From a virus, in the IMG/VR virus record IMGVR_UViG_3300018954_000017, positions 1-64,000 of that record: a stretch of DNA of 64,000 nt; one strand, given 5' to 3'. How positions within the stretch are numbered: position 1 is the first letter of the stretch; each line of letters opens with the position of its first letter. The position numbers and the translations under genes were made by a program. Positions 11,943 to 51,842 of this stretch are shown piece after piece. The notes under the pieces were generated by a model. The model had not been told where the DNA came from. It saw only the letters and a program-made list of their open reading frames with translations, and did not search any database.

Positions 11943-12422
11943 TCACTCCGGTGGGTTTTCAATTGTGAATCTTGCGATCGCTTCTGCAATAGCTTCGGCG
12001 CGTTTGAGCGAGTAGGATGTAGCAATGTCATTTGAATAATGCGGCACGTAAGCTAACGTCACTCCACGATAGTCACCAGGTTGAGGTTCAGAGAAGTTCT
12101 GAGAAATTACTGTGATGCAGTTGGAATTTCTCTTAAACTCAATCCGCCCCGTATCCGTCACCTTATCCGTATTCTGCTCACGACGGTAGCTATTGATACG
12201 CATCAGTATCTCTAGCCCGTGTTCAGTTGTCAATAGCTCGTCAATGACCAGGCTGACCGCACCCTCGAATGTCTCACGGGCAATGAATTCGGTGTTTGGG
12301 TTGTTCGCTGATGCAGCGGTTAACGCACGGTATAATTGGTCTTCGCTATAGTCTTCAGCCGCATCGTACATATCAATGATTTCTTTACTCAGTTCATCGA
12401 CTAACTTGAATCGCTCAACCAT
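11943..12422 (-). CDS. Hypothetical protein
   Basis: 159 aa, acidic, with a helical N-terminal half and a C-terminal amphipathic helix (RAEAIAEAIARF). No domain recognised. First gene of the 11031-12422 set. The palindromic pair at 12515-12551 lies about 90 bp upstream and could control it. Confidence 0.6.
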   Translation of the reverse strand: MVERFKLVDELSKEIIDMYDAAEDYSEDQLYRALTAASANNPNTEFIARETFEGAVSLVIDELLTTEHGLEILMRINSYRREQNTDKVTDTGRIEFKRNSNCITVISQNFSEPQPGDYRGVTLAYVPHYSNDIATSYSLKRAEAIAEAIARFTIENPPE

Positions 12423-12573: not shown

Positions 12574-13785
12574 TTAGAGTTTTGACCAAGGTATTACTCT
12601 AAGGTTCCCACAAGACCTTCGGACACAAACACGGGGTTCCTCATCTTTGTCCCCGTCATGCCACAAATAATCTGTCACAAGGTCATCCAGCAACCCTTGA
12701 GGCACCTCATCACACTCGGCTTCTGCTTTGTAACCCTCAACTATTGGATACAACTTGCCCCGTTCTAACTCTTTCTGAAACCTAGTCAGACTTTTGTGCC
12801 AGGAACCCTTCAAAAGCCCCGCTTCTGACAACCTATGCTTAACTGTTATATAGACCCGACTACATTCAGCAGGATCGGGAGCTATACGGGGCTGCAAGGT
12901 AGGTTCAAAGGGTGGCTCGTCGGATTGGGCGTCCCACGGGTCGGGCGGGTTTTGCGGGGCTTCTAGCGCGGGTTCGGCTGGCGAAATTTGCGCGGCGGAA
13001 ATCGTATTTAATTGACCACACTGATCCATTATCTTTTGCACGGGTATTTCATCTTCTCGTCTTCCGGGTTCACTAACTAGCCCGTGTTCTAGATTCTTTT
13101 TCGATGAATCGAAGTCAGTAAGGCTTGCCTCCGGATTCTCTTCACGAGTCAACTTAGCGTCGGGAGCCGGAGCAGACCCCGTAACCTTAGTGCAGGGGGC
13201 TAGCTCCGAGCAACCAGAGCGAGATATAGACGAAGAATCTTTTTGTAGATCTCGATCAGTCTCATTTAGTCTTATTAAGTCTAGAGGAGAATAAGAACCA
13301 GACAGGGAAAGGGTTTCGCTTTCGATAGCGTGTCTTTCCTGATCGATAGCGTGTCTTTCCTGATCGATAGCGTGTCTTTCCTGATCGATAGCGTGTCTTT
13401 CCTGACACGGTATTTCTTTTGGTTCCAAAGGTTCTGAATTCGACTGTGCATTGGTTTCGCCCTCTTGGGCTTTCCAATAATCCATCTCAGATCCATGCAA
13501 GTTCTTGACCATCCAGTGTTGGATTTTACGTCGATCACGTCCGTAATATTTCGGTTCAAACTCGAATAGTCCTTCATCTTCCAGCACCAGTCTCGCCCTT
13601 TTGAAGGAAGTTTCTTTTAAGTGGGTTTTAAGTGGTTTGAAATTTTCTCCGAACGGATCTGCCAACGATGCCTCAATCCACAATTTGATAACGCACTCGT
13701 TCTGCGTCAACAACCACTCTCCATCATCTTCCGACATTTTTGCAAAGCGCTTGTTCAATCTTTTTGCTACACTTGACTTACTCAT
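12574..13785 (-). CDS. Winged-helix-like DNA-binding protein, candidate replication initiator or regulator
   Basis: 403 aa from the ATG at 13785 (AAGG eight bases upstream). The N-terminal ~95 residues form a compact helical domain that aligns with the whole of the plus-strand protein at 34281-34619: shared CV..LWI, FG..F, T.L.E.SF..A and W.V.N.HG..YW. The centre is low complexity with four ERHAIDQ repeats. A C-terminal domain of about 100 aa is unfamiliar. The fold is inferred from the alignment and composition. Paired palindromes lie just past its 3' end, as for its paralogue, suggesting a protein-site module such as a Rep with iterons or a repressor with operators. Confidence 0.5.
   Translation of the reverse strand: MSKSSVAKRLNKRFAKMSEDDGEWLLTQNECVIKLWIEASLADPFGENFKPLKTHLKETSFKRARLVLEDEGLFEFEPKYYGRDRRKIQHWMVKNLHGSEMDYWKAQEGETNAQSNSEPLEPKEIPCQERHAIDQERHAIDQERHAIDQERHAIESETLSLSGSYSPLDLIRLNETDRDLQKDSSSISRSGCSELAPCTKVTGSAPAPDAKLTREENPEASLTDFDSSKKNLEHGLVSEPGRREDEIPVQKIMDQCGQLNTISAAQISPAEPALEAPQNPPDPWDAQSDEPPFEPTLQPRIAPDPAECSRVYITVKHRLSEAGLLKGSWHKSLTRFQKELERGKLYPIVEGYKAEAECDEVPQGLLDDLVTDYLWHDGDKDEEPRVCVRRSCGNLRVIPWSKL
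13322..13405. repeat. Four tandem 21-bp repeats inside the winged-helix-like gene
   Basis: Unit about GATAGCGTGTCTTTCCTGATC, four copies nearly identical at DNA level, encoding the heptad ERHAIDQ on the minus strand. Near-identity at third positions implies recent expansion by slippage; copy number may vary between relatives. Confidence 0.85.
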
Positions 13786-14652: not shown

Positions 14653-14745
14653 GCTAGCCATAGTCTGACTATTGTGGGGCGAATGAGGGGGATGAGGCAG
14701 GGACTGAGAGGGGTTCTAGATACTATTTAAAATATTTTTGTTTCA

Positions 14746-15160
14746 AAACCGGACACCTGATCACAAAATCCGGACTGTCCGAAATCTCTACGTATGCGCC
14801 TCACTAAATGACACATGGTGTACTTGGTGTCCGAATTCACTGTCCGGTTATTAAGCCAGTCCTATTGACTGTCCGAGTTTTACATTTCGCGGATTTTTAC
14901 TGTCCGAATTCTAAAAATATGATAGACATCCACCAATTTGCTGTGGATAGCCATCAATATTTATCTGCCAGCGCCCAGTATTTCTAACAACTAATGACTG
15001 ACTACTGAACACTCTATTGCAATCTATTCTCAACAACTACCTTACTAAGTATTTATACCTGTCCGAATTTACTGTCCGGTTAGGTGTCCGGTTTTATCAA
15101 GCCTACTTATAGGCACATTGTCACTGTCCGAATTTGTTGTCACAAGCAAAAGTAATTCTT
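14746..15160. repeat. TGTCCG repeat array, copy 1 (noncoding)
   Basis: About 415 bp without a gene. It holds about nine direct CTGTCCGAATT-like motifs (near 14775, 14828, 14840, 14869, 14900, 15060, 15073, 15085, 15125) and inverted CCGGACACC / CCGGAC at the left end. The centre has no such motifs but is conserved with copy 2 at 51448-51842 (shared GTGGATAGCCATCA, CTCTATTGCAATCTATTCTC). It could be an iteron origin, a partition site, or a mini-transposon with multi-site ends. Purpose unknown. Confidence 0.7.
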
Positions 15161-23936: not shown

Positions 23937-24066
23937 TGTTTTTCTTATGTGTCGTAAATTCAGTGGTCACCAGCGGTTACCTTATGTTAACATGGGAGAA
24001 GCAGCTAGGTCAAGTCTGCGATGTCTAACCCTAGCTGCCCGTAACATCCACAATACCCATTCTATC

Positions 24067-24828
24067 ATGAGTAATCTTTCTGTCACATTGCCTGAGTCTA
24101 CAATTGTTGGATTTCTGGAGTCTGAATACGAGTGTGCAGTTGATATTGAGTTGTTAGTAGGCATTGGTGTCTACAGCAGAAAAGACCATGCAGTTCGAGC
24201 ATTGAAGAAAAACTTTGAAGAAGGTATTGACTTCTCCTCTTCAAAGGGGAGAGCAAGCCAGCAGGGAGTTTCAGCTACCTGTTACTTCTTAACCTCAGAC
24301 TGCTTCAAGCAGATGTGTATGATGGCTGAAACAGAATTCGGTCGTGCAGTCCGCAAATACTACCTCGAAGTCGAACGTCGCTGGAAAGAGTCTCGCAAGA
24401 CTTCTCAAGCACCCTATCATTGGCAAAGGTTACAAACGTTCAGCGAGAAAACCGGACGGTTACCTGCGGGATACTTTTGCATCTTCCAAGAGATAACGCC
24501 ATTGGTCAGAGATCTGGAGTCTTTAGGCTATCACCTCCCAGAGAATGCAATCATCGACTCTAGTATCGGCAAACGCTTCTGTGAACATTTGCGGAACGAA
24601 TGCCAGATAGATCCGGATGTAGTGTGTAGAACTTACAAACATTGGTATCCAGGGCGGCGTTGGTCAGTAGATGCAAACCTGTATCCACTCAATCTCATCG
24701 GAGTTTTCCGGGAGTGGTTGGAATACCAGTACTATCACGAGTATCTCATTCCCTACTTCAAGGGTCGTCGTGACCCCAAAGCCCTCCAAGCCGCCTCTAG
24801 ATTCCTCGGCTTACTTCCGTCACAATAG
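24067..24828 (+). CDS. Phage antirepressor-like protein (AntA/BRO type)
   Basis: 253 aa from the ATG at 24067. The N-terminal ~100 residues match the AntA/BRO pattern: YSRKDHAVRALKKNF and EGIDF near the start, then YFLTSDCFKQMCMMA and GRAVRKYYLEVERRW. The C-terminal domain (about 115-250) is helical and unfamiliar but common in this group. Antirepressors inactivate or compete with repressors to trigger lytic growth. An isolated plus-strand gene with its own terminator, divergent from an RHH gene. Confidence 0.75.
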   Translation: MSNLSVTLPESTIVGFLESEYECAVDIELLVGIGVYSRKDHAVRALKKNFEEGIDFSSSKGRASQQGVSATCYFLTSDCFKQMCMMAETEFGRAVRKYYLEVERRWKESRKTSQAPYHWQRLQTFSEKTGRLPAGYFCIFQEITPLVRDLESLGYHLPENAIIDSSIGKRFCEHLRNECQIDPDVVCRTYKHWYPGRRWSVDANLYPLNLIGVFREWLEYQYYHEYLIPYFKGRRDPKALQAASRFLGLLPSQ

Positions 24829-25549: not shown

Positions 25550-25742
25550 GCGTTTCCTCGCTCAACTTCCCCAATTGTAGCTCTAGCGTCACTCTGGCGT
25601 CAAACACGGTAAGTGGGGAATCTCGATTTACTGTAAATCTGGACTTCGACCGTACCTCTTTACCGTGAGAACCGTACCGTAGCAATCTAAAATCGTTGAT
25701 GTGTAAGGATTTGAGGTTGTTTTTAGTCAAACTTTCCCACAA
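25539..25742 (-). CDS. Doubtful small hypothetical protein
   Basis: 67 aa, basic, with a normal-looking composition, but its frame spans the perfect palindrome ATTTACTGTAAAT (25626-25638), which elsewhere is intergenic. Either a short gene with an internal operator or a chance frame. Confidence 0.3.
   Translation of the reverse strand: MWESLTKNNLKSLHINDFRLLRYGSHGKEVRSKSRFTVNRDSPLTVFDARVTLELQLGKLSEETRDG
25626..25638. promoter_or_regulatory. Single ACTGTA-family palindrome
   Basis: Perfect ATTTACTGTAAAT, flanked by CG and CTGG as in other copies. About 360 bp upstream of structured element copy 2; unlike the other sites it is not paired. Confidence 0.55.
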
Positions 25743-25929: not shown

Positions 25930-25984
25930 TAAGAATCTATATTTTATTATTCTTATAATTAAGTTAATTAACTAAGAATCCTCC

Positions 25985-26433
25985 GTTAATTCTTTTATTC
26001 GTTCCTCATAAAAGAATTAACTACGGTGCGCTAATCGCGCAAGCTGGACGGTCAGGAGGATGATTGAGAAAGAATACGGATTGCTCACGCCTATACGACC
26101 AATCTAAGGGGTATTCGCTGCGCTCATGGGCAAAGCCTGACCTGACTTACCATCATCGTCTTAAAGATCTCGAATACGGGCTGGTCTGTTAACTCGGAAG
26201 ACAGATACTTAAACTTCCCGTGCAGAAGATGCTGGATCGGTGTAGATCTTTTAAATACGATTTCGTCCCCGCTAAAATCGCCAAGAAGCTGCCCCAAATT
26301 CCGCGAACGTCCAATCCTACCCGCGACCCCCTAAACCCGCCCTCCTGCCCCGTACAGCCGCCTCTGAGCTAACCCACACGCAACCCATCCACCCTACCTA
26401 ACAGAGCTAGCCGCCCAACTAACGCAAAATCGT
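25985..26433 (+). ncRNA. Candidate structured RNA element, copy 2
   Basis: Begins with a perfect 14-bp stem GTTAATTCTTTTAT / ATAAAAGAATTAAC (25985-25998, 26008-26021), then TGCGC / GCGCA (26027-26031, 26037-26041). Core pairings: TTAAAGATCT (26161-26170) with AGATCTTTTAA (26244-26254); ACGGG (26176-26180) with CCCGT (26217-26221); TCTGT (26185-26189) with ACAGA (26201-26205). The first and last inner stems differ in sequence from copies 1 and 3 yet still pair. A C-rich, G-poor tail (about 26290-26420) ends at AACGCAAAATCGTT. The 775 bp between genes hold no convincing ORF. Confidence 0.5.
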
Positions 26434-26463
26434 TGTTTGACCAGTTCGTCCCGAATATGACAA

Positions 26464-26496
26464 AGCCCTCGAAGGCGATAGGTGCTTTCGAGGGCT
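26464..26496 (+). terminator. Hairpin after structured element copy 2
   Basis: AGCCCTCGAA (26464-26473) / TTCGAGGGCT (26487-26496), a perfect 10-bp stem without a strong T-run. Could end a transcript of the element or terminate the minus gene at 26518. Confidence 0.5.
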
Positions 26497-26517
26497 GTAG
26501 GAGGCTATTGGGTGACT

Positions 26518-26760
26518 TTAGTCGTCCGATTCTAGTTCTAGATCGTGGTCGCTCACTGAACTCTCACAGGATTGTCGGTAACTCATTTCATCTAACCCTG
26601 CTTGGATTGCATCAACCACCAAACATTTCGCGATGTCTTCAATGTCTAAATCCTCAGATAGTCCCAATTTCCGGCACAACTTTTTTAGTTCAGATTTAGT
26701 TTTGGGCAACGCTAACGGAACACAAACTTCTACCAATCCATTCACTGTTACTTCTTGCAT
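26518..26760 (-). CDS. Hypothetical protein
   Basis: 80 aa from MQEVTVNGLVEV (GGAG seven bases upstream). An acidic C-terminus (SVSDHDLELESDD) follows a helical middle with KSELKKLCRKLGLS. No family recognised. Confidence 0.6.
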   Translation of the reverse strand: MQEVTVNGLVEVCVPLALPKTKSELKKLCRKLGLSEDLDIEDIAKCLVVDAIQAGLDEMSYRQSCESSVSDHDLELESDD

Positions 26761-26857
26761 TTCTATCTCCAATCTTTTGCTTAGTTAATGTTAGCTAAAG
26801 TGGCTAATGATACATCCGCTCTGCTCAATGTTTGCTTTGGTTGGTGTTAAGAGAACT

Positions 26858-27178
26858 CTACCACGAATGATCGATTAAGTAGTTTCCTTGGGGAAGGTAA
26901 CCGTCGTAAACTAGACGGGCGAGTATTGCGCCGATGTCACCCCAATATTCGGACTCAAGGTAGTTGACTATCATCAGGGCATTTTCCGTGTCATATCCGG
27001 CAAAAGAACCCTCACCAAAGTCTGGCTGTTTGTCGTGGACTATCTCAAACAATCTCATGTCCCCATTATTACCGCCACAAAACATAAATATTTGCGGCAA
27101 CCCGTAACAGTCTGTGATGAATCGACATAAGTCCGAACTATCCACACAGATCACCGTCTTACTCGTACTCTTTAGCAT
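26858..27178 (-). CDS. Hypothetical protein
   Basis: 106 aa, alpha/beta composition, with MFCGGNNGDMRLF and a GYDTENALMIVNYLE helix. No family recognised. A CATCTACC motif is at 27230-27243. Confidence 0.6.
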   Translation of the reverse strand: MLKSTSKTVICVDSSDLCRFITDCYGLPQIFMFCGGNNGDMRLFEIVHDKQPDFGEGSFAGYDTENALMIVNYLESEYWGDIGAILARLVYDGYLPQGNYLIDHSW

Positions 27179-27229
27179 CGATTGCTCCTATAGTTTGCGA
27201 TTGAAGTGTTGCAATAGCAACCTTTGACT

Positions 27230-27243
27230 GCGGTAGATGCGCC
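27230..27243 (-). promoter_or_regulatory. CATCTACC intergenic motif
   Basis: Minus strand GGCGCATCTACCGC about 50 bp before the gene at 27178. Confidence 0.4.
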
Positions 27244-27367
27244 AATAGTTCGAGCCATTGAAGCTTTCGTTGATTTGTGCTAATCGATTGATTGCTCTTG
27301 TGAAGTCCATGTTAGCTTCGCTCACTATCTAAGGTTTACTTGTTGTTGCAGATGTCTTCGATAGTCG

Positions 27368-27589
27368 TCAAATGTTGGCTTCGGGTTCTGATAGGTAGGA
27401 GTCAGTCTGATGTATTTCGTAATTGCCGCGATCGTCCACCCATTGACCTCGCGCAAATCTTCTTTCTTTCCACTGTGAACCCTTTCGTTGGTCTTTAGCC
27501 ACTTCCAGTGTTGGATACACACCCAACACCGTGAAAGACTCGTAATCATCCCACATTATCAAAACGAATAATTGTTGTAACATTGTCAT
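27368..27589 (-). CDS. Hypothetical protein
   Basis: 73 aa, MTMLQQLFVLIMWDDYES start after a good AAGGAG site. A W/F-rich beta-like sequence. A second minus frame at 27325-27549 overlaps most of it, has no ribosome site and is treated as a shadow. Confidence 0.55.
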   Translation of the reverse strand: MTMLQQLFVLIMWDDYESFTVLGVYPTLEVAKDQRKGSQWKERRFARGQWVDDRGNYEIHQTDSYLSEPEANI

Positions 27590-27622
27590 TCTCCTTTGGT
27601 TATTTCTGCTAACTTTTGCCGC

Positions 27623-27934
27623 TTAAGTTCCTTTAGACCGAGTTTTAATTCTTTTTCTGACCTGTATGATAGCTGACCTGATGCATCGCCATTGTGCGTT
27701 GTCGAAGTTGTCAGAACCCAATTCTCCAAATTGCAACGAATAGTCCCAAGCTAAATCTGCAAAGTTTTCACAACGAATCTCTCCACCATCCTTAAACAAG
27801 TTATCAAGAAATGTATTGAAGTTGTCAACCGAAATTCCAGCGAGACTTTTGTTTGCACTTGCTGCCTTGTCGATTAATGAGTCAGCCATGCGATCTGCTG
27901 TTTCACGCACGGTTATCTTTAATTTGTTAGCCAT
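27623..27934 (-). CDS. Hypothetical protein
   Basis: 103 aa, helical with a basic end (QVRKRIKTRSKGT). The N-terminus contains ITVRETADRMADSLI. No family recognised. Confidence 0.6.
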   Translation of the reverse strand: MANKLKITVRETADRMADSLIDKAASANKSLAGISVDNFNTFLDNLFKDGGEIRCENFADLAWDYSLQFGELGSDNFDNAQWRCIRSAIIQVRKRIKTRSKGT

Positions 27935-27971
27935 TTTATTTTTCTCAATTACGTTACTGTAGCCCTACATT

Positions 27972-27993
27972 AGCCGCTTTCGGGCGGCTTTTT
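27972..27993 (+). terminator. Terminator-like hairpin on the plus strand
   Basis: AGCCGC / GCGGCT followed by TTTTT reads as a plus-strand rho-independent terminator, although both flanking genes are on the minus strand. It may block antisense transcription or work bidirectionally. Confidence 0.6.
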
Positions 27994-27996
27994 AAG

Positions 27997-28206
27997 TTAC
28001 TGAGCTGTGTCGTTACTTTTCACGAATGATTCTGTGAGGACGATGCCAGATGAGTCGTTGCTGAGTTTATTCTCAAACTCTATCAACTTTCTCATCAACT
28101 CGTAACTACCTGTCGGCGTTCCGTCAGAGTCTAGTCCATGAATACTGACTAAGTTGACTAGTCTTCTGTACTCTAATTTTGTCAATTTGATTGCTGGTAA
28201 ACTCAT
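27997..28206 (-). CDS. Hypothetical protein
   Basis: 69 aa, MSLPAIKLTKLEYRRLVNLV, helical and acidic. No family recognised. Motif CATCTACTGC at 28231-28245 lies 25-39 bp upstream. Confidence 0.55.
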   Translation of the reverse strand: MSLPAIKLTKLEYRRLVNLVSIHGLDSDGTPTGSYELMRKLIEFENKLSNDSSGIVLTESFVKSNDTAQ

Positions 28207-28230
28207 GTTTCTCTCCGGTGACTTAAGTTT

Positions 28231-28245
28231 GCAGTAGATGACCCT
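28231..28245 (-). promoter_or_regulatory. CATCTACTGC intergenic motif
   Basis: Minus strand GGGTCATCTACTGC followed by AAACTTAAGTC; recurrent family. Confidence 0.45.
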
Positions 28246-28257
28246 AGCTGACTTTAG

Positions 28258-28620
28258 CTACAGGATATCCCAGCTAAAGTAACCGTAGACCAAGACCTCA
28301 GAGTCATTTACGTACCAAACATTATCACCTTCACTCATCAGAGTGCCGTATTTCAATTGCCAGTCAGCAACCTCATCAATCACCAACTGTTCTAGCAGAA
28401 CTGCTGCATCCTCATCATTACTCGGTAGGATCGCCCATAACTCCTCGTATCCAGAGCCACCCAAGACTTCACTAGCTACCAATTGAGCCAACTCTCGTGA
28501 ACTCATGCTGTCATAGTACTCCACAGTAATCAGTTGCTCGCCTTCGCGATTGTGGTGGTCAGTGAGGTAGTCGGGTGTGCAAATGTCGATGAAGTTGTAA
28601 CGCAGATTGTAGTTGTTCAT
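28258..28620 (-). CDS. Hypothetical protein
   Basis: 120 aa from MNNYNLRYNFIDICT. Acidic, with two likely helical segments (SSRELAQLVASEVLGG; DDEAAVLLEQL-like) and a C-terminal strand. No family recognised. Confidence 0.55.
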   Translation of the reverse strand: MNNYNLRYNFIDICTPDYLTDHHNREGEQLITVEYYDSMSSRELAQLVASEVLGGSGYEELWAILPSNDEDAAVLLEQLVIDEVADWQLKYGTLMSEGDNVWYVNDSEVLVYGYFSWDIL

Positions 28621-28671
28621 GAGTTTAATGGTTGTGATGGGTTTACTGTAGACGCTTCCTGACTCAATCAA

Positions 28672-29055
28672 CTATAACAAGTGGGCATCCACGCGGTCAA
28701 TCGTAACACCAGCCAGCGTATGTTGACTCATGTAGTCGAGGATCGCTCTCAGCTCTTGACGTGATGCAGAATTCTTCAACGTGTTGGCACGGTAGCTAAT
28801 GATGCGACAGTTCGCTTGAGTGTAGCCCTTCGAGTTATCAACCCGATCCACTGAGGGAGCGTGTGGTAGGTCAGATCTGTCACAACCAACAGTGATGGGA
28901 ATGTTGAGTACTGGGCAACGTTTAGGTAGGTTAGCCAGCAGCCACTCAGTTGTCAGGTCAAACTCTAATCCTAACTCTTGCGCTCGTTTGCGGCTTCTGT
29001 ATAGCTGTAGCCGCGCCCACCCAGTGCGGGATTGTCTGTAGGATTTGGTTGTCAT
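28672..29055 (-). CDS. HNH-type endonuclease-like protein
   Basis: 127 aa from MTTKSYRQSRTG. Contains the pattern CPVLNIPI ... PSVDRVDNSKGYTQANCR then ISYRANTLKNSAS, as in small phage HNH/endonuclease VII-like proteins, where SxDRxD..KGY..(G/A)N marks the HNH core. The N-terminus is basic. Probable DNA nuclease, homing or recombination-related. Some catalytic positions cannot be confirmed by eye. Confidence 0.6.
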   Translation of the reverse strand: MTTKSYRQSRTGWARLQLYRSRKRAQELGLEFDLTTEWLLANLPKRCPVLNIPITVGCDRSDLPHAPSVDRVDNSKGYTQANCRIISYRANTLKNSASRQELRAILDYMSQHTLAGVTIDRVDAHLL

Positions 29056-29100
29056 GGGTTGCAATTGGTAACGTGTGGAGTAGATGCAACACTGATGACA

Positions 29101-29526
29101 TCAGTTAAGGCGATAGACGTAGTAGTTAGACCAATCTTTTTTCTTGATCTTAAGGATTCGAGCGATTTCTCGTGTATCATCCGAGTCAATCTCGTCCAAC
29201 GTGTATTCTTCGCCATTATAACTTGAGAGGAAATGACCCCGACTATCAGCACTGACTGCATCATGTACAAACTTTTTGAAGTCTGGAATGAGTTTGTGGA
29301 GCATAGGATTGGCATCCTCATACTTTGACTGAATCACTTTGATAACATCAATATCGTCAATGATTGCGTGACTAGCAATAAAGTTTGACTCAAAGCTCCA
29401 CACCGAATCGTGAATGTATTTCTCAACTGCTGTATCTGCCTCATCATTAGTTCCTACCGCGTACTCACGATTACCTAAGCTAACCATTGTCATGCCGTAG
29501 AAGTCGTAGCCTAATATCTTGGTCAT
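29101..29526 (-). CDS. Hypothetical protein
   Basis: 141 aa, MTKILGYDFYGMTMVSLGNREYAVGT, alpha/beta with an acidic middle and basic C-terminal region. It has the look of a conserved phage early protein but no assigned function. Confidence 0.6.
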   Translation of the reverse strand: MTKILGYDFYGMTMVSLGNREYAVGTNDEADTAVEKYIHDSVWSFESNFIASHAIIDDIDVIKVIQSKYEDANPMLHKLIPDFKKFVHDAVSADSRGHFLSSYNGEEYTLDEIDSDDTREIARILKIKKKDWSNYYVYRLN

Positions 29527-29604
29527 TTTTACATCCTCAGTTGTGAATCTATTGTAACTTTAGCTAAACTATTGGGTCAAAGCTTGCTATCGCAAGACTT
29601 AATT

Positions 29605-29619
29605 GCGGTAGATGCACCG
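29605..29619 (-). promoter_or_regulatory. CATCTACC intergenic motif
   Basis: Minus strand GGTGCATCTACCGCAATTAAGTC, 79 bp before the gene start at 29526. Confidence 0.45.
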
Positions 29620-29628
29620 GATGATTGT

Positions 29629-29835
29629 TTACCGATACATCCCATACAATTCGTTCGCCCTCAGCCACTCGGCAGGCTCTAGGGAAACGTTCGCAGCTAA
29701 TCCTAACAGAATGTTCTGATTGTTGTGGAGTTTGTAGACGTTGTCTAATGCTGCTTTGGCTTGCGATAGTTTCTGTGGCGCGATTGAGGCGAAGAATATC
29801 TCGGTTTGGATGTAGCGGTCGATTGTGTTGTTCAT
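29629..29835 (-). CDS. Hypothetical protein
   Basis: 68 aa, helical, N-terminus MNNTIDRYIQTEI. No family recognised. Starts about 22 bp from the intergenic repeat at 29857. Confidence 0.5.
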   Translation of the reverse strand: MNNTIDRYIQTEIFFASIAPQKLSQAKAALDNVYKLHNNQNILLGLAANVSLEPAEWLRANELYGMYR

Positions 29836-29856
29836 GAGTTGAGGGTGTTGTTGTTT

Positions 29857-29885
29857 GCCAGCAAATGCGCCCTGATGTGGTCAAT
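29857..29885 (-). promoter_or_regulatory. TTGACC-ACATCAGGG-CATTTGC repeat
   Basis: Minus strand TTGACCACATCAGGGCGC then ATTTGC. First of four near-identical intergenic units (also 30318, 30766, 31033), each just upstream of a gene start; a likely promoter/operator cassette duplicated with the genes. Confidence 0.6.
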
Positions 29886-29887
29886 CG

Positions 29888-30286
29888 CTAGCTGAGATAC
29901 ACCTGACCATTGTCGCCTATATATGGCTCTCTCTCGCCAAATGAGTTAGCAGAGTCGGTTAACAGAGTGGCATAAGGCTCTTCATAATCACCATCCCAGA
30001 ATCCGCAGCCATGACTATTACGTGTTAACCAGAAGTCATGCATGATTGTGCTTAACTCGTGACCATTTTCTCGTAATGCGACAATTAGACTGTAATTACT
30101 TTGTATGAAATGTTCACATTCAATCCGGTGGAACTGTAACGACTCAGTATCTACATCATCAAAGTCGTAATTGGCATCCAACGGCGCACCATTGTCATCT
30201 GTAGTTGACCATAGTGCGGTTGCTACGTACTGTTGGAATGCTTCGGAATCTAGAAGATTAACTGTTCTGTATGTTGAAACTACCAT
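29888..30286 (-). CDS. Conserved phage hypothetical protein
   Basis: 132 aa. The C-terminal block MHDFWLTRNSHGCGFWDGDY and GEREPYIGDNGQVYL is a signature I know from many unrelated phages, with no known function. The gene is well conserved in length for that family. Confidence 0.65.
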   Translation of the reverse strand: MVVSTYRTVNLLDSEAFQQYVATALWSTTDDNGAPLDANYDFDDVDTESLQFHRIECEHFIQSNYSLIVALRENGHELSTIMHDFWLTRNSHGCGFWDGDYEEPYATLLTDSANSFGEREPYIGDNGQVYLS

Positions 30287-30317
30287 TGATAATGCCCGCG
30301 TGTTGGTTGACTCAATT

Positions 30318-30346
30318 ACAGCAAATGTACCCTGATACGGTCAATT
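30318..30346 (-). promoter_or_regulatory. TTGACC-TATCAGGG-CATTTGC repeat
   Basis: Second unit of the four-copy intergenic cassette, minus strand TTGACCGTATCAGGGTAC then ATTTGC, 32 bp before the gene start at 30286. Confidence 0.6.
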
Positions 30347-30730
30347 GATTGGTTCCGCCCAGTACTCAGATTGCTCGAAGTCCATGTTGCTAGCATATTC
30401 GTCAGCAGCTTCCTGAGAGTCAAACTCTACGGTCTCGACAATCTCGGAACTGGAACCCGTTAGACACCAGATGTTGTACTGTTGCGGCTTTGGTCGGCTT
30501 GAGTCGGCTGATGGTTGCTCCGGGTAGAGCTGATAGCTAATGTTCAGGATGTGTTGAGAATCAACTATCAAGTCGCTGGGATGATAATCTGTAATTGCTT
30601 GAATCTCATTCCAAGTTGCTTCCTTCAGAGTGGCAATCGCTTCCCTCAAGTCATTCTGATGTTGCTCTTGTGGGTATGTGTTGCTTGAGAGCCAAGATTC
30701 TGCTAGTTGAATTGCGGTGATTAATTGCAT
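30341..30730 (-). CDS. Hypothetical protein
   Basis: 129 aa; helical start (LITAIQLAESWLSS) and an acidic strand-rich end. The stop lies within the intergenic cassette. No family recognised. Confidence 0.6.
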   Translation of the reverse strand: MQLITAIQLAESWLSSNTYPQEQHQNDLREAIATLKEATWNEIQAITDYHPSDLIVDSQHILNISYQLYPEQPSADSSRPKPQQYNIWCLTGSSSEIVETVEFDSQEAADEYASNMDFEQSEYWAEPIN

Positions 30731-30765
30731 TTTGGGGTTCCTGTGTGGCGTTGGTTGGCTTCAGT

Positions 30766-30795
30766 TTGGCAGACGCACCCTGATGTGGTCAATTG
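30766..30795 (-). promoter_or_regulatory. TTGACC-ACATCAGGG-CGTCTGCC repeat
   Basis: Third unit of the intergenic cassette, about 35 bp before the gene start at 30730. Confidence 0.6.
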
Positions 30796-30800
30796 TAGAG

Positions 30801-30998
30801 CTATTGCTGCTCAAACTTTGCTACAAGTTTGTCATAGTACAGTTGAGCTTCGTAGTCATCCTCATCTTCGATATTTGATGTCATGCGACCTGGCTTGTAA
30901 CTTGATTCCGACAAAAATTTGTATTGCCAAGACCATTGCCCAGTATGATGATTGTTGCAATACCAATATAAACCAACCAACTTGCTGAAAGTACTCAT
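30801..30998 (-). CDS. Hypothetical protein
   Basis: 65 aa, MSTFSKLVGLYWYC start, acidic C-terminal helix (DEDDYEAQLYYDKLV). No family recognised. An overlapping frame at 30862-31059 is a shadow. Confidence 0.55.
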   Translation of the reverse strand: MSTFSKLVGLYWYCNNHHTGQWSWQYKFLSESSYKPGRMTSNIEDEDDYEAQLYYDKLVAKFEQQ

Positions 30999-31032
30999 TA
31001 CTTAATCCTCTGTTGCGTTTGTTGACTTTAGT

Positions 31033-31061
31033 CTGGCAGATGTACCCTGATGTGGTCAATT
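31033..31061 (-). promoter_or_regulatory. TTGACC-ACATCAGGG-CATCTGCC repeat
   Basis: Fourth unit of the intergenic cassette, about 35 bp before the gene start at 30998. Confidence 0.6.
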
Positions 31062-31103
31062 GCTTACTGTGGTGGCGTTAGGGGCAAACATGAATGATTA
31101 TTC

Positions 31104-31139
31104 ACATTTTGTCTATAGATGCTGAGAGGTGCAAAATGT
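31104..31139. other. Hairpin in a gene-free stretch
   Basis: ACATTTTG (31104-31111) / CAAAATGT (31132-31139), followed by ATGTC...GACAT. Lies in 150 bp without a gene; possible operator or terminator. Confidence 0.4.
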
Positions 31140-31209
31140 CTCTTATATGGGACATCCTCCTACAATTCCCCCTCCCAGACACCTATAGCAACCTACAGCC
31201 TCAGTAGCG

Positions 31210-31494
31210 TTACCTTAGAGAAGCTTTGGTGTGCTCTCGTCTGGCAATGGTAGTCATAAACCCTGCTAGTTCCCGGTCAGTAAGCCTTGTACAGCGGTAG
31301 CGATCTCTTACAAGCTCTCGAAACGATCGCCCGACAGAGGGGGCTACAGTGAGCTTTAGGTATAGTGTGGGAGGCACTTGTCTGTAATCGTATGCTGTGC
31401 CAGAGGTGAATACGATTCTGAGGGTGTGAGATGGTACATCATAGGCGATGTACTGGATTGCGGTGGAATTTACGAACCTGTAGTGATTGAACAT
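31210..31494 (-). CDS. KTSC-domain protein, paralogue 1
   Basis: 94 aa. KTSC pattern: STAIQYIAYDVPSHTLRIVF, SGTAYDYRQVP, then SVGRSFRELVRDRYRC. KTSC domains are small, of unknown function, often in phages or fused to lysyl-tRNA synthetase. The C-terminus is a basic helix. A second KTSC gene follows upstream. Confidence 0.7.
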   Translation of the reverse strand: MFNHYRFVNSTAIQYIAYDVPSHTLRIVFTSGTAYDYRQVPPTLYLKLTVAPSVGRSFRELVRDRYRCTRLTDRELAGFMTTIARREHTKASLR

Positions 31495-31579
31495 GATGTC
31501 TATTGCGTCCTATGCGAAAGGATTGAAGCCTTCTTGGATAGCATAAGCCAAACCATTGGCAGTAGATACACCCGACATC

Positions 31580-31927
31580 CTACAGTCTCATCAGTCCTGA
31601 AGTCATCTCTTGCTGTACTTTAGCAGCCAATTGCAAGGCTTTTGAGACTTTGGAGTCTAGACGTTCACGCTTATAGGATGCCTTTAGAGACTCGCGGATA
31701 TCAGCTTTAGGATCATGTGACATCAATTTCACTAGCTGTGCATCATGCAATGACACCCCATAGTAATCATAGCCAGCACCAGAACCATAGATGACCCTGA
31801 GAGTGCGTGTCTCGTGGTTGTAGAAGATTGCCTCTACTGAGGATGAACACTCACAACGTAAGACTGAAACTACTGTGGAGGATGCTTTCTTGGCTGTACG
31901 TGCGATACGTTTGTGGATTGCAGACAT
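31580..31927 (-). CDS. KTSC-domain protein, paralogue 2
   Basis: 115 aa from MSAIHKRIARTAKK (AAGG upstream). Basic N-terminal tail of about 30 aa, then a KTSC core: VEAIFYNHETRTLRVIYGSG, AGYDYYGVSL and a loop to DIRESLKASYKRERL. Diverged tandem duplicate of the gene at 31210. Function unknown. Confidence 0.65.
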   Translation of the reverse strand: MSAIHKRIARTAKKASSTVVSVLRCECSSSVEAIFYNHETRTLRVIYGSGAGYDYYGVSLHDAQLVKLMSHDPKADIRESLKASYKRERLDSKVSKALQLAAKVQQEMTSGLMRL

Positions 31928-32014
31928 TGTGAAATACCTTTTATGTGTTGGTGTTGTGAATAATCTAACCTTTGGTAGATACAGTGTCAAAGGCTGCTAA
32001 AGCAACACTTGAAT

Positions 32015-32110
32015 CTAGAGAAGGATGAGTGACCAAACGAGACAGCCAGTAACGAACGTTGTCAGGAAACTCACTGTAAATCCTACAGTAAACAGGAATA
32101 ATGCTTTCAT
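32015..32110 (-). CDS. Tiny membrane peptide
   Basis: 31 aa, almost entirely one hydrophobic helix (LFLFTVGFTVSFLTTFVTG then VWSLILL). No SD evident. Could be a holin-like or exclusion peptide, but short hydrophobic frames also occur by chance. ACTGTAAAT / ACAGTAAA half-sites (32073-32092) overlap its start region. Confidence 0.35.
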   Translation of the reverse strand: MKALFLFTVGFTVSFLTTFVTGCLVWSLILL

Positions 32111-32162
32111 GCGAATACCTTGTGTGAATGATGTGGGAGTTACTCAGCTAACTTAGCCAATT

Positions 32163-33149
32163 TTACGCAGCTACGGCAAGTTTAGCAAGTTTAGCAAGTT
32201 TAGCAAGTTTAGCATCTTTCCGGGCACGGGCAAGGTTAGATAGGTGGAGTTCCTTGATGGGGGTCTTGCTAGGGGATACTGTCACTTCGGCTATGTCCAC
32301 GCCTTGGCTTCTGAAGTAGTCAGCACAGCCCTTGAGTAACGCCTCCCCAGTCGCGCCCTTGCCCCCAATGTTGCCTTGGAATAACCCTTGTGAGCGTAGA
32401 GCCTTGCACACCTGTTGCAGTTGACGATACTTCATCCCCTTGCACTCCTCCCACGATAGACCCTCAGGAAGGCTAATGATTTCTTGAGTCTTGGCTTTGG
32501 TCGCCTTGGGAGCCTTAGCAGGGCTAGCTGGTGCTACGTACGCAGAGTTGAGGATGTGGTGAGCTAATGCAGCTTTGATGAGGGTGCTAGCAGATTTACC
32601 TGTGATACCTGTATGTAGAGCATGATGATTTAACGCTTGAGCAGCTTGCACCAACTCCCTCCGTGACATTGCCTCTAGAGCCTCTATTGAAGCGATAGTG
32701 GGCATAGGTAGCTTTGGGGTCTTAGGCGCTTTAGATGCCTTGGATGACTCAGGCTCATCAACTGTAGCGTCAGGCTTGCTTTTGATAACCTCTGTTGCTG
32801 TAGTACCCGCAGCAATTATCTCACCATTAACAAAAGGCGCTGCTGACATTGTGGCTATGTTTTCGTCAGGAGTATTTAGTTTGACAAGATCTAGAAAGTC
32901 TTTAGAATTCTTGACTTGTTGCACAATCTTGAACACACCTCGTAGCTTTGCCTGTTCAGCGATAAGAGCTAAAGCCGCTTGAGTAGAACTATTGGTTGAC
33001 TTGAGATACTCTTGGATACTGAGAACTAGGTCATCAATCAGTTTGTTATTGAATCTGTAATCCATCAGGACATTTTCAATTACATCTAGCACTCTGACAT
33101 CCATTGCGGCGGCGATCTCAGGTGTGACTGTGGCGACTGTAGTTGTCAT
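32163..33149 (-). CDS. Two-repeat Ala/Lys-rich protein, unknown
   Basis: 328 aa. A helical N-terminal domain (1-110) and a Pro/Ser/Lys linker precede two related ~45-aa units: SIEALEAMSRRELVQAAQAL and LSWEECKGMKYRQLQQVCKAL, each followed by a Gly-Lys-(S/G)A loop and a helix. These resemble SAP/Rho-N type helical extensions that bind DNA or RNA. The C-terminus is a LAK repeat. It has a strong promoter. A chromatin- or RNA-binding role is possible; not proven. Confidence 0.5.
   Translation of the reverse strand: MTTTVATVTPEIAAAMDVRVLDVIENVLMDYRFNNKLIDDLVLSIQEYLKSTNSSTQAALALIAEQAKLRGVFKIVQQVKNSKDFLDLVKLNTPDENIATMSAAPFVNGEIIAAGTTATEVIKSKPDATVDEPESSKASKAPKTPKLPMPTIASIEALEAMSRRELVQAAQALNHHALHTGITGKSASTLIKAALAHHILNSAYVAPASPAKAPKATKAKTQEIISLPEGLSWEECKGMKYRQLQQVCKALRSQGLFQGNIGGKGATGEALLKGCADYFRSQGVDIAEVTVSPSKTPIKELHLSNLARARKDAKLAKLAKLAKLAVAA
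32177..32212. repeat. Short tandem repeat encoding LAK units
   Basis: Four to five copies of TTTAGCAAG at the 3' end of the 328-aa gene, encoding a Leu-Ala-Lys repeat; slippage-prone. Confidence 0.8.
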
Positions 33150-33178
33150 TTGCTTAACTCCTGTGGGCTGATGTGTCT

Positions 33179-33207
33179 AATCTAACTGAGTGGCTATCGA
33201 CTGTCAA
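33179..33207 (-). promoter_or_regulatory. Strong sigma70-type promoter
   Basis: Minus strand TTGACA (33207-33202), 17-bp spacer, TAGATT (33184-33179), 30 bp upstream of the 328-aa gene. The region 33208-33583 holds no convincing gene; a plus frame at 33190-33534 would begin inside this promoter. Confidence 0.7.
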
Positions 33208-33583
33208 GAGTTTTCTGAAGAATCTTTTGAAACTACTGTAACCCTTGCGTTGCCGTCGTTCCTTACCCCTGATGTCTCTATTATGGCATGGTGGCTACCC
33301 ACTGGTCATGAGTATATATGCCTAATTGAGAAATTGCTTCTGATTGGCGTCTCCTCTCCCGCATTCTTTTTAAACAAAGGAAAGAGGTTAGCACGGGGAT
33401 CGGTAGATGTCTATAAGTACTTGTGCTTACAGTTGTTTGTTTTCGACCAACTAATAACACAAATTACGTCACCAGGCTGCGTCCCCCTAATCTACACCAC
33501 ACAAAATTTTGAACAATACTTGGTCTATAGCTGAGGATGTAAGTCATAAAATACTAACACACCCTACAGACCTACTAATTCGG

Positions 33584-33589
33584 TATAAT
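33584..33589 (+). promoter_or_regulatory. -10 element TATAAT
   Basis: TATAAT 34 bp before the gene at 33624; no clear -35. Type-2-like cyanobacterial promoter possible. Confidence 0.4.
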
Positions 33590-33623
33590 AATCAATATTG
33601 AACTTAGTTAGTAGGTAACTCCA

Positions 33624-33935
33624 ATGTCTAACAGAAGCTTACCAAAGCCACTAGGGCTATCAAGAGTCATGCCACATGATGTAGTCTTCGATCATTACCT
33701 ATCTGAAGATGAGAGACGAGAGCGAACATTAGCAGCATTTGCCTGGGTCGAAAGCAAACTGGAGCTGTTCATGCCACTATCGCCAATGCAACAGGTCAGT
33801 CTAAAGAAGATATTGTCAGCAGTCCGCCGCAGTGATGCTATTGCTGCTGAAGTTGCTATTGCAGAGCTGATATATCTAGAGGAGCCAGTCAAGAAGGGAT
33901 GGAATAAGTTTGGAGTGGGTGAAGGAGAAGTCTAG
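33624..33935 (+). CDS. Hypothetical protein
   Basis: 103 aa, helical (KKILSAVRRSDAIAAEVAIAE), N-terminus with LGLSRVMPHD. No family recognised. Convergent with the minus gene at 33932 (4-bp overlap). Confidence 0.6.
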   Translation: MSNRSLPKPLGLSRVMPHDVVFDHYLSEDERRERTLAAFAWVESKLELFMPLSPMQQVSLKKILSAVRRSDAIAAEVAIAELIYLEEPVKKGWNKFGVGEGEV

Positions 33936-34168
33936 TCAGGAATGTACTCCACAAAGTATTCATACAAATCGAGATTGAGTGGATGTTGTAATTGAGACTC
34001 CACGAATCTTACCTGCTCACTAGTTTCAACAGGATAGGCATCATACATGGGATTGTCTGACTCAATATTGAACAACCTTTGAAGATCGGACAGTGTTACC
34101 ACTTTTAAAGGTGACGAACCAATTAAACCATCGCAATCTTTCTCAAACCAAATCACTGTAGGAATCAT
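33932..34168 (-). CDS. Hypothetical protein
   Basis: 78 aa, acidic, MIPTVIWFEKDCDG. No family recognised. It has a promoter with a palindromic operator upstream (34204-34234). Confidence 0.55.
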   Translation of the reverse strand: MIPTVIWFEKDCDGLIGSSPLKVVTLSDLQRLFNIESDNPMYDAYPVETSEQVRFVESQLQHPLNLDLYEYFVEYIPD

Positions 34169-34203
34169 TTGCGTCTCCAGAAAAACTAAAGTCTACTATT
34201 GTC

Positions 34204-34234
34204 ATTATAGAAACTGAGGCAGTAAGATAGTCAA
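34204..34234 (-). promoter_or_regulatory. Promoter with TACTGCCTCAG operator in the spacer
   Basis: Minus strand TTGACT (34234-34229), 19-bp spacer containing TACTGCCTCAGT (34213-34224), then TATAAT (34209-34204). Same layout as the distal SSB promoter. Confidence 0.6.
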
Positions 34235-34280
34235 ATTGCGGATTGAACTGCAACAACAATCCGCAATAATCCAAGTAATT

Positions 34281-34619
34281 ATGGTGAATATTACGATTAT
34301 GCCAGAAAACAAAAGGTACGCAAAGATGCACAGAACAATTTCTTTAGAAGACTTGAGATGGCTAAAGACACAAGAGCCTTGCGTAAAAGAATTATGGATT
34401 GACTGTGTAATAGCGGAGGGATTCGGAGACAGATTTGTTGATGTTGAGACAGACTTGAGCGAAAAGTCATTCCGCAAAGCGAAGAAAGCCCTTGAGTCAC
34501 GGTTCTTTGAATTTCAGGCAAATCTAGAACTGAGTGCCGCTGGAAGAGGGGTGATTACAGGATGGAAAGTTCGGAACGTCCACGGTACACGCAACAGGAA
34601 ATACTGGTCTGAAGAATAG
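34281..34619 (+). CDS. Winged-helix-like protein, paralogue of the 12.6-13.8 kb protein
   Basis: 112 aa from MVNITIMPENK (an ATG at 34299 and an earlier one are alternatives). It corresponds to the N-terminal domain of the 403-aa protein: TQEPCVKELWI, GFGDRF, TDLSEKSFRKAKKALE and GWKVRNVHG...YW all align. It lacks the long C-terminal region. Followed by a terminator and then paired palindromes, as in the paralogue's locus. Probably a DNA-binding regulator or short Rep-like form. Confidence 0.55.
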   Translation: MVNITIMPENKRYAKMHRTISLEDLRWLKTQEPCVKELWIDCVIAEGFGDRFVDVETDLSEKSFRKAKKALESRFFEFQANLELSAAGRGVITGWKVRNVHGTRNRKYWSEE

Positions 34620-34642
34620 AGCTAAGTCGAATATTGGAGTTT

Positions 34643-34668
34643 AAGCAGGCTTTCGGGTCTGCTTTTTT
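34643..34668 (+). terminator. Rho-independent terminator
   Basis: AAGCAG (34643-34648) / CTGCTT (34659-34664) with TTTTTT. Ends the short winged-helix-like gene. Confidence 0.75.
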
Positions 34669-34691
34669 ATGTAGGTAAATAGGGATTCCTC

Positions 34692-34728
34692 ATTTACTGT
34701 AAATCGGGAAAGCCAATCTACTGTAAAT
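34692..34728. promoter_or_regulatory. Paired palindromes, 24-bp spacing (ACTGTA family)
   Basis: ATTTACTGTAAAT (34692-34704) and ATCTACTGTAAAT (34716-34728), same spacing and intervening CGGGAAAGCCA-like sequence as at 50355 and 12515. Lies between the winged-helix-like gene and element copy 3. Confidence 0.65.
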
Positions 34729-34796
34729 TGAGCCATGGGAACTCAGCCGATTTCACGGGAAGCAAAAAAGTTCTCATGGTAAAAGATTCCAGAGGA

Positions 34797-34838
34797 GAGA
34801 GCCGGAATTCTTTAACAGTAAGCATTTTCGCGGCTCTC
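34797..34838. other. Hairpin upstream of element copy 3
   Basis: GAGAGCCG (34797-34804) / CGGCTCTC (34831-34838), followed by two CATGATCTAA direct repeats. Possibly part of the element's 5' region or its promoter. Confidence 0.4.
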
Positions 34839-34883
34839 ATGACTTATTCATGATCTAATACATGATCTAAGATCTATCACTCC

Positions 34884-35335
34884 GGTTATTTACTACTCAC
34901 TTCGTTCGTTGTAAATAACCTCCGTGACGCAACAAGTTGCGAGTTGGACAGTCAGGAGGATGATTGAGAAAGAAAGAATTGCTCACGCCTCTACGACCAA
35001 TCTAAAGGGTGTTCGCTGCGCTCACGGGCAAAGCCTGACCTGACTTACCATCATCGTCTTACAGATCTAGAACACGGGCTAGTCACTACGAACGAAGATG
35101 AACACTTAAACTTCCCGTGCAGAAGATGCTGGATAGGTGTAGATCTTTTAAATACGATTTCGCCCCCACTAAAATCGCCAAGAAGCCGCCCCGAATTTCG
35201 CGAACGTCCAATCCTACCCGCGACCCACTAAACCCGCCTTGCTGCCCCGTACAGCCACTCCTGAGAGAACGCGCACCCTGCCTATCTACCTCGACTTACA
35301 TGTGCAACTTCTAGACTAACGATTTTGCGTCAATC
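34884..35335 (+). ncRNA. Candidate structured RNA element, copy 3
   Basis: Starts with GGTTATTTAC / GTAAATAACC (34884-34893, 34911-34920) and CGCAAC / GTTGCG (34928-34933, 34936-34941), stems at the same places as in copy 2 but of different sequence. Core stems: AGATCTA (35063-35069) with TAGATCT (35140-35146); ACGGG (35074-35078) with CCCGT (35114-35118). The 44-base core is 35119-35162. The C-rich, G-poor tail runs to about 35310 and ends at AACGATTTTGCGT, which is the reverse complement of the end of copy 2's tail. A promoter for tiny peptides follows. No known RNA class recognised. Confidence 0.5.
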
Positions 35336-50297: not shown

Positions 50298-50354
50298 CCA
50301 ACAATAGCTTGCACTAGCAACGTAAGTCCGGTTTCTAGTAAAGAGACAAACCCG

Positions 50355-50390
50355 ATTCACAGTAAATTGGGAAAGCCAATTTACTTATAT
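50355..50390. promoter_or_regulatory. Paired palindromes, 24-bp spacing, second site degenerate
   Basis: ATTCACAGTAAAT (50355-50367) and ATTTACTTATAT (50379-50390). Same 24-bp register and intervening sequence as at 34692. Upstream of element copy 4. Confidence 0.5.
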
Positions 50391-50422
50391 ACATAGATGA
50401 TCTATTCATATATAAAATCTAA

Positions 50423-50710
50423 CTATCTCGCGTAAACGCTCGAACACAGATAGCTGATTGAGTATAAGTAAAGAATCAACGGCGACCTTACTCTTGCTCA
50501 ATGAATTTGGAGATCTACTTAACGGGCTAGTGATTCCGAACGAAGAAGAGCAGACTTGTACCCGTTCCTAGATGATGGATCTGTGAGGTAATAAAGATAA
50601 GCCCCAAAAATCGCCTGCAACCCGCCGCAGCACCGCAACCACCTCACACTACCTTGACCTACCTCAACACCTGCTCCTGCCCCCCTAGCCTTACTTAAGC
50701 CAACGTTTGC
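50423..50710 (+). ncRNA. Candidate structured RNA element, copy 4 (divergent)
   Basis: CTATCT / AGATAG (50423-50428, 50448-50453) at the 5' side; AACGGG (50521-50526) pairs with CCCGTT (50561-50566), one base pair longer than in copies 2 and 3; AGATC (50511-50515) pairs with GATCT (50578-50582). Sequence identity to the other copies is patchy but GGGCTAGT and the C-rich, G-poor tail (about 50596-50700) are kept. Ends at a TGCTACAAT promoter. The most diverged member; it lacks the 44-base core identity. Confidence 0.35.
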
Positions 50711-50995: not shown

Positions 50996-51436
50996 ATGTA
51001 TTTTGCTACGACGAAACAATTTAGAGATTATTTATTTAAACTGCTTCAGCCCTACATTGGCAGCGCAAGATTGGCTGGAGGAGCTGTTGTGCCTGCCATT
51101 TTTGTTGGAGAACCTCCTATTGATACTCGCGTGACCGGAATGGAAGTGTCGCTGCCCAAAGACTCTAGCGGCAACAGTCAAGGGTTAACGGGCGGCATTG
51201 CTCCAACCAACAAGTTTGAATTCAGACTCATTCAACATCCAGGCAGTGACTTCTTAAGCCAAGCTAAAGACACAGTAGTCTCACATATGACTCCGATAGA
51301 TTACAGGTTCGTTGCGGCTGCTAGGGCACCAGCAGGGCAGAAAGAAGAACAGCTAACTTTAGACCAATATGTATTTAGTTTTAGTCGTAGTGCTTTAGTT
51401 TTACTGCCATTCAGGCAAGCTTTAACTACTATTTGA
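50996..51436 (+). CDS. Tail-module protein, unknown (possible tail terminator)
   Basis: 146 aa, mixed alpha/beta (FRDYLFKLLQPYIGSARL, then strands). Position between completion protein and tube protein suggests a tail terminator or neck protein. No direct family match. Ends just before the TGTCCG array. Confidence 0.5.
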   Translation: MYFATTKQFRDYLFKLLQPYIGSARLAGGAVVPAIFVGEPPIDTRVTGMEVSLPKDSSGNSQGLTGGIAPTNKFEFRLIQHPGSDFLSQAKDTVVSHMTPIDYRFVAAARAPAGQKEEQLTLDQYVFSFSRSALVLLPFRQALTTI

Positions 51437-51447
51437 AATTTGCTCGT

Positions 51448-51842
51448 TTCAAACCCGGACACCTGATCATCAAATCCGGACTGTCCGAGTTTCCACACCA
51501 ATATGACATAAAGTAAAACTACATGTACGTAGCTGTCCGATTTACTGTCCGATTATTAAGAACTCATTGTTGACTGATGCAGCCGCTTCGCTCACTGTCC
51601 GATTTCTGAAAACGTGGTGGGTATCTGTCAAATTTGTGTGGATAGCCATCAGCTTTCAGGTATCGGCTCTCAGTTTTTATAACAACTGATCCCTCATTAC
51701 TGATAGCTCTATTGCAATCTATTCTCAATAACCCGTTAACTAAGTATAAATACTTGTCCGAATTTACTGTCCGATTAGGTGTCTGGTTTTTCTAGTACAA
51801 ATGTTCTAGTGTCCGAATTTGTTATCACGACCGCAAATAATT
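51448..51842. repeat. TGTCCG repeat array, copy 2 (noncoding)
   Basis: About 395 bp, same order and orientation of landmarks as copy 1 at 14746-15160: left CCGGACACCTGATCA and CCGGACTGTCCGA, paired CTGTCCGATT motifs, the motif-free conserved centre (GTGGATAGCCATCAG; CTCTATTGCAATCTATTCTC), right CTTGTCCGAATTTACTGTCCGATTAGGTG and a final GTGTCCGAATTTGTT. Motif bases vary but the spacing is kept. Confidence 0.7.

Follow-up and report, generated by a model that had tools for sequence, protein, structure and literature searches.

The window analysed here, a stretch of 64,000 bp, corresponds to positions 1-64000 of the 104,255-bp virus record IMGVR_UViG_3300018954_000017 and contains a repeated element with a body of ~370 bp and a conserved core of ~180 bp. 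The element occurs both between genes and, in-frame, within genes encoding winged-helix proteins, and arrays of short palindromes accompany it. We estimate a probability of roughly 45% that these units represent a dispersed cis-acting DNA element, composed of a palindrome array and a recombining body and putatively bound by phage winged-helix proteins. We infer from sequence what binds the array, what this binding does, and in which exact role the unit serves (as operator, origin, centromere, or recombination cassette).

Copies of the Element

The first-pass annotation of the window had described a four-copy, entirely intergenic element. All four copies are present, can be aligned with each other, and show pairwise BLAST similarity far above chance. 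The nearly identical 44-base core of copies 1-3 was also found, as were the ACGGG/CCCGT arms, which are kept nearly everywhere. However, the copies are more numerous, with four others in the record (k13, the 67.7-kb copy, k90, and k101; Table 1), and those at 12.9-13.2 kb and 67.7 kb sit inside open, conserved genes. Altogether, eight copies were detected in the record (five of them in the window) and two in the partner contig G002 described below, giving ~10 per phage; one more allele is present in the related contig G001. The copies were found using an nhmmer profile built partly from the copies themselves; its E-values therefore serve as a summary only, and the independent evidence comes from BLAST. 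Within its own record, copy 1 is 88% identical to copy 2 (E 1e-53). Copy 4 is divergent: it shows 53-62% identity in the core, and its BLAST matches to another copy are 79% over 62 nt and 24/24 nt (E 2e-9 and 1e-6).

The seven intergenic copies contain stops and frameshifts throughout, and the protein-coding origin that had been considered for them was rejected on these grounds. On the phylogenetic tree, they are separated from the coding copies by one branch, and their diversity exceeds that of the coding clade. An insertion of ~47 nt is common to the intergenic copies except the shortened k50 and is absent from the coding copies.

Table 1. Element copies, associated genes, and palindrome arrays. 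Coordinates refer to the virus record unless a contig is named.
Feature	Position	Strand	Description
k1 (copy 1)	20-394	+	Intergenic, upstream of ORF 534-2618 (+); nhmmer; BLAST 83-84% to 101-kb and 90-kb copies
Array after P0002	12514-12576	-	Three palindromic sites; 12514 and 12538 score 20 of 24.6 bits
P0002	12574-13806	-	410 aa; winged-helix domain, linker (the element), C-terminal domain
k13	12878-13241	-	In-gene linker SSSISRSGCSELAPCTKV...LNTISAA...; BLAST 75% to copy 2, E 1e-17; translation
Palindromic site GATTTACTGTAAATC, perfect	25625-25639	+	~350 bp upstream of k26
k26 (copy 2)	25975-26361	+	Intergenic; distinct 5' domain with 14-bp perfect hairpin
P0004	34236-34619	+	127 aa; solo winged-helix gene directly upstream of k35 array
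Array upstream of k35	34667-34729	+	34691 and 34715 strong, 24 bp apart
k35 (copy 3)	34886-35258	+	Intergenic; BLAST 89% to k26, E 4e-76; 87% identical to k26 over 357 nt
Array upstream of k50	50330-50392	+	Palindromic sites, then shared AT-rich stretch
k50 (copy 4)	50473-50691	+	Intergenic; divergent, without 5' hairpin domain
67.7-kb copy	67711-68050	+	Inside gene; nhmmer, BLAST
k90	90253-90632	-	Intergenic; nhmmer, BLAST
k101	101407-101777	+	Intergenic; nhmmer, BLAST
G002 copy	26803-27176 of G002		Intergenic; nhmmer
G002 copy	12041-12407 of G002		In gene; nhmmer
G001 copy	2298-1935 of G001		In gene; nhmmer

Palindrome Arrays

An array consists of up to three 15-bp palindromes of the GATTTACTGTAAATC type with a spacing of 24 bp and spacers such as GGGAAAGCC. 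Arrays are located upstream of all seven intergenic copies (that of k1 is at the start of the partner contig G002), while in all four linker genes an inverted array follows directly after the stop codon. The 24-bp spacing is kept although the arrays flank different sides of the element in the intergenic and coding copies. With array and body ordered differently in intergenic and in coding copies, the link between them appears to be functional and not just a matter of inheritance.

Sites scoring at least 18 bits occur only beside elements. Of the array loci of the record, all seven are at most 368 bp away from an element; the zone so defined makes up 8% of the record (~2e-8, with the distance chosen after the fact). 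At k26, no more than one or two sites are strong, and the same holds for several other arrays owing to their outer sites. In five of the seven intergenic copies (k1, via the partner contig; k50; k90; k101; and the G002 copy), a conserved AT-rich stretch follows the array. In the array after P0001 (record 68345-68431, L008 4345-4431), the middle palindrome is split by a short G+C-rich insertion.

Linker Genes and Their Winged-Helix Proteins

The in-gene copies (12.9-13.2 kb, 67.7-68.1 kb, 12.0 kb of G002, and G001) belong to ORFs of 393-410 aa. The four ORFs have a common plan, in which a variable N-terminal winged-helix domain is followed by the element as a linker (SSSISRSGCSELAPCTKVTGSAPAPDAKLTREENPEASLTDFDSSKKNLEHGLVSEPG...) and by a C-terminal domain. 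These parts differ in their mode of evolution. The N-terminal part shows saturated divergence. The C-terminal domain has a dN/dS of ~0.15 at a dS of 0.57-2.5, which indicates selection on the protein; this value, together with the Nostocales relatives of the N-terminus, identifies the ORFs as genes. The 82 codons of the linker core are 90-98% identical at the nucleotide level, dN is 0.02-0.11 against a dS of 0.02-0.09, giving a dN/dS of ~1, and third codon positions are no more variable than the others. The near equality of dN and dS beside a constrained C-terminal domain therefore indicates that what is kept similar in the linker, by function or through frequent recombination, is the nucleic acid and not the protein.

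AlphaFold models indicated a disordered linker (pLDDT <50) and a confident winged-helix topology at the N-terminus. The winged-helix genes end at arrays, and no match of their proteins to known initiators was found. In P0002, a 21-bp tandem repeat of ~4 copies (window 13301-13426) encodes QERHAID repeats between the winged-helix domain and the element.

The N-terminal domain family of P0002 is also present on Nostocales plasmids. A widespread, uncharacterised Nostocales gene (L011, L019-L021, L027-L067) combines the same winged-helix N-terminus with a linker that is long and rich in palindromes. A gene for a hypothetical protein of ~500-560 aa precedes it on the plasmids examined. This Nostocales gene has no Pfam or NCBIfam name and possibly encodes a plasmid replication or control protein. 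In hhalign comparisons of the element protein with the Nostoc plasmid relatives, confident alignment is limited to the winged-helix part, and a profile nhmmer comparison of the element linker with their palindrome-rich linkers detected no homology (E >10).

Phage Genome, Partner Contig, and Host

In the window, there are genes for the portal, the major head protein, and tail proteins, together with a giant ORF of tape-measure type; tail fibre J, DNA polymerase, DnaB, and an O-like protein are encoded in the remainder of the record. A filamentous cyanobacterium is the probable host, given that relatives of one phage DNA-binding domain are found on Nostoc, Trichormus, and Calothrix plasmids.

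The record begins inside element k1. One end of the 38.7-kb contig G002 (IMGVR_UViG_3300018954_000006) overlaps the end of the record by 146 bp with one mismatch, and its other end meets the record start inside k1. No structural gene is common to G002 and the record; the terminase, judged by eye from the sequence, is apparently on G002. With ends that join and no structural gene in duplicate, G002 probably supplies what the record lacks of the same phage genome, which would then be ~143 kb in total. An earlier suggestion that the element is shared between unrelated phages, made on the grounds that G002 has only repeats in common with the record, was withdrawn for this reason.

Several other features can be noted. 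A B12-dependent ribonucleotide reductase with intein splicing and LAGLIDADG homing-endonuclease domains is encoded at L008 15000-19472 (-). The C-terminal part of two AntA-type proteins (window 23947-24828, +, and L009 5197-6063, -) matches the BstA abortive-infection family (phrog_6287). A Ro60/TROVE and vWA protein is encoded near an RNA ligase gene (record 91072-92661, -, and 93422-94417, -; L009 7072-8661 and 9422-10417), and the Ro60-like gene has k90 on its downstream side. Besides the element, there is a second non-coding repeat in several copies, ~400 bp long, TGTCCG-rich (CTGTCCGAATTTACTGTCCGG), and 74-78% identical between copies, at window 14721-15155 and 51427-51828 and at L025 16221-16629; its G002 copy immediately precedes a gene for a helix-turn-helix-like protein.

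Mosaic Structure and Distribution

Compared segment by segment, the element copies have a mosaic make-up. Identity among the 5' domains of k1, k90, k101, and the G002 copy is 89-98%, while the k90 core is only 72-75% like the others. The k26 and k35 copies have a separate 5' domain, a k1-like core, and a C-rich end nearer to that of the coding copies. In the strain pair G000/G001, contig G001 and the record are 91-93% identical to either side, but homology is lost exactly at the left edge of the element (67698), where a different winged-helix half is joined. Neither fixed ends nor target-site duplications were found in the copy alignments, and no mobilising enzyme was seen, although no systematic search for one was made.

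A blastn search of phage and plasmid records revealed nothing convincing, and neither did DNA and protein searches of up to 386 cyanobacterial genomes, apart from one weak 48-nt DNA match. In IMG/VR, degenerate DNA patterns gave only chance matches outside the two relatives G001 and G002. The array pattern was not found elsewhere using exact-match patterns, which could miss divergent arrays.

Comparison with Known Systems

The element has not been found outside these phages. It can be likened to stoperators, to origins within initiator genes, to dispersed centromeres, and to in-frame palindromic repeats; we do not count it as a member of any of these groups. The stoperators of cluster A mycobacteriophages are single asymmetric 13-mers, oriented and dispersed in short intergenic spaces (PMC9283540). 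Common to both systems are many dispersed, oriented sites in intergenic spaces of one phage genome and a tie, putative here, to a phage DNA-binding protein. Here, in contrast, the sites are palindromic 15-mers clustered in 24-bp arrays and attached to a ~370-bp body that also occurs inside genes. The asymmetry, oriented with transcription, that defines stoperators (PMC9283540) is not seen in these sites.

Iteron-type origins may be located inside or beside the initiator gene, as in lambda (O/ori) and P1 (repL/oriL). The likeness includes the winged-helix N-terminus, a DNA site in the linker-coding part, the AT-rich stretch, and tandem sites at fixed spacing, which were found beside ten copies, some of the sites being degenerate. 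The differences are that the phage has ten copies, most of them without a gene, that the array lies after the gene and not in the linker, and that a separate O-like protein is encoded beside DnaB. GC skew did not indicate a clear origin. In N15, palindromic centromere sites are likewise scattered over the phage genome; here, the palindromic sites are accompanied by a large conserved body, and ParA/ParB were not identified among the proteins scanned. Rickettsia palindromic elements, palindromes of ~100-150 nt, occur in many unrelated genes. They resemble the present element in being found both between genes and in-frame in coding sequence, whereas the latter is longer, is found within genes of one family only, and is paired with binding-site arrays.

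Alternative Explanations

A structured RNA of unknown class was the reading favoured in the first-pass annotation, with a DNA-level role, the kind of reading preferred here, named as the main alternative. The array would then act as operator and the AT-rich stretch as promoter, with the body giving a non-coding RNA of 350-450 nt; the coding copies would keep the RNA part in their mRNA. The order of array, AT-rich stretch, and body in the same orientation in five of the seven intergenic copies agrees with this, as does the 5' hairpin, which keeps its loop CACTAAGGTTAC while several of its pairs are changed between coding and non-coding copies. The k26 and k35 copies also carry perfect hairpins of unrelated sequence. 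Such kept hairpins favour hairpin formation in DNA or RNA. However, no excess folding stability was detected: k101, the longest well-preserved copy, folds no better than its dinucleotide shuffles (z +0.39 and -0.02 on the two strands). RNAalifold analysis of the seven non-coding copies against column-shuffled alignments gave z of -0.01 (+) and -1.6 (-), and the local signal in the core of all copies was -2.9 (+) and -4.6 (-). The stronger signal on the opposite strand is as expected of inverted DNA repeats and not of one RNA strand. The proposed stems pair in 80% of cells; their covariation is not significant, since double-changed pairs were reached in 163 of 500 shuffles, although such tests on nine to eleven related sequences have limited power. 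The arms of the supposed TTAAAGATCT/AGATCTTTTAA stem are near self-complementary (AGATCT), and the stem does not hold in copy 4, in the 90-kb copy, or in the coding copies. A scan of upstream regions revealed no sigma-70-like promoter above chance. As had been noted, no known RNA family is recognisable: the window has no match at the curated threshold to any Rfam family, among them HEARO, GOLLD, ROOL, introns, RNase P, tmRNA, and 6S, and k26 gave only chance sub-threshold matches at E up to 10. GOLLD, ROOL, and HEARO/omega RNAs are intergenic and several hundred nucleotides long, and HEARO is multi-copy in some cyanobacteria; the present element differs from them in having no Rfam match and no RNA-specific structure signal and in being translated in some copies. 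On this evidence, a transcribed RNA is unlikely.

The units could also be a non-autonomous mobile or recombinogenic repeat that renders no service to the phage, spread by recombination or by an unseen enzyme and tolerated between genes and in a disordered linker, with the array carried along, like the Rickettsia palindromic elements. We consider this possible, though doubtful. It would account for ~10 mosaic copies per phage, for the linker dN/dS of ~1, for contig ends falling in copies, and for two winged-helix paralogues whose linker cores are 98% identical although their flanks have diverged. On the other hand, the position of the array on opposite sides of coding and intergenic copies is not that of one fixed mobile unit, the constant termini, target-site duplications, and transposase of a transposable element, IS, or MITE are wanting as far as they were sought, and the repeat is missing from the other phages, plasmids, and cyanobacterial genomes searched. 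Quite improbable is the explanation that the intergenic copies are decayed fragments, relics of winged-helix genes that have lost both end domains. The solo winged-helix gene P0004 does lie upstream of k35 at a spacing like that of an intact gene, and the frameshifts and stops would fit decay; but seven copies would have to have lost the same parts, each retains its upstream array, and neither the ~47-nt insertion nor the greater diversity of the intergenic copies is expected of relics.

According to the preferred explanation, a cis-acting DNA element, each unit would comprise up to three 15-bp palindromic protein-binding sites and the recombining body. Seven such units lie between genes, while in three genes the body is embedded in-frame and happens to be translated, forming the disordered linker of a winged-helix DNA-binding protein, with the array after the stop codon. 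The winged-helix proteins probably bind the arrays, which would make the unit a DNA site of the operator, replication, or partition type. Recombination would keep the shared body similar between sites and would also allow the 5' (DNA-binding) half of the genes to be exchanged. Four points weigh against this explanation. The N-terminal segments of the linker genes are only 19-36% identical in amino acids despite the same array, which is odd if each protein reads it; recent gene conversion alone could be the source of the nucleotide identity of the linker; fold searches with the linker protein gave no significant or specific relative; and the sampling amounts to one phage population, so that conservation over longer time cannot be judged. 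A more specific version of the proposal is rather unlikely, namely that a DNA site makes its own protein carry it. Recombination would preserve the cis-acting element as the disordered linker of the very DNA-binding proteins that have its arrays as their targets, and the seven non-coding satellites would form one regulatory or replication network and serve as a junction for swapping specificity.

Significance

The element is a nucleotide sequence that occurs both between genes and in-frame in a linker whose amino acid sequence is apparently not under selection (dN/dS ~1). If the winged-helix proteins do bind the arrays, large cyanophages would have a dispersed system of control or replication that has not been described before, and the element would offer phages a concrete means of exchanging DNA-binding domains.

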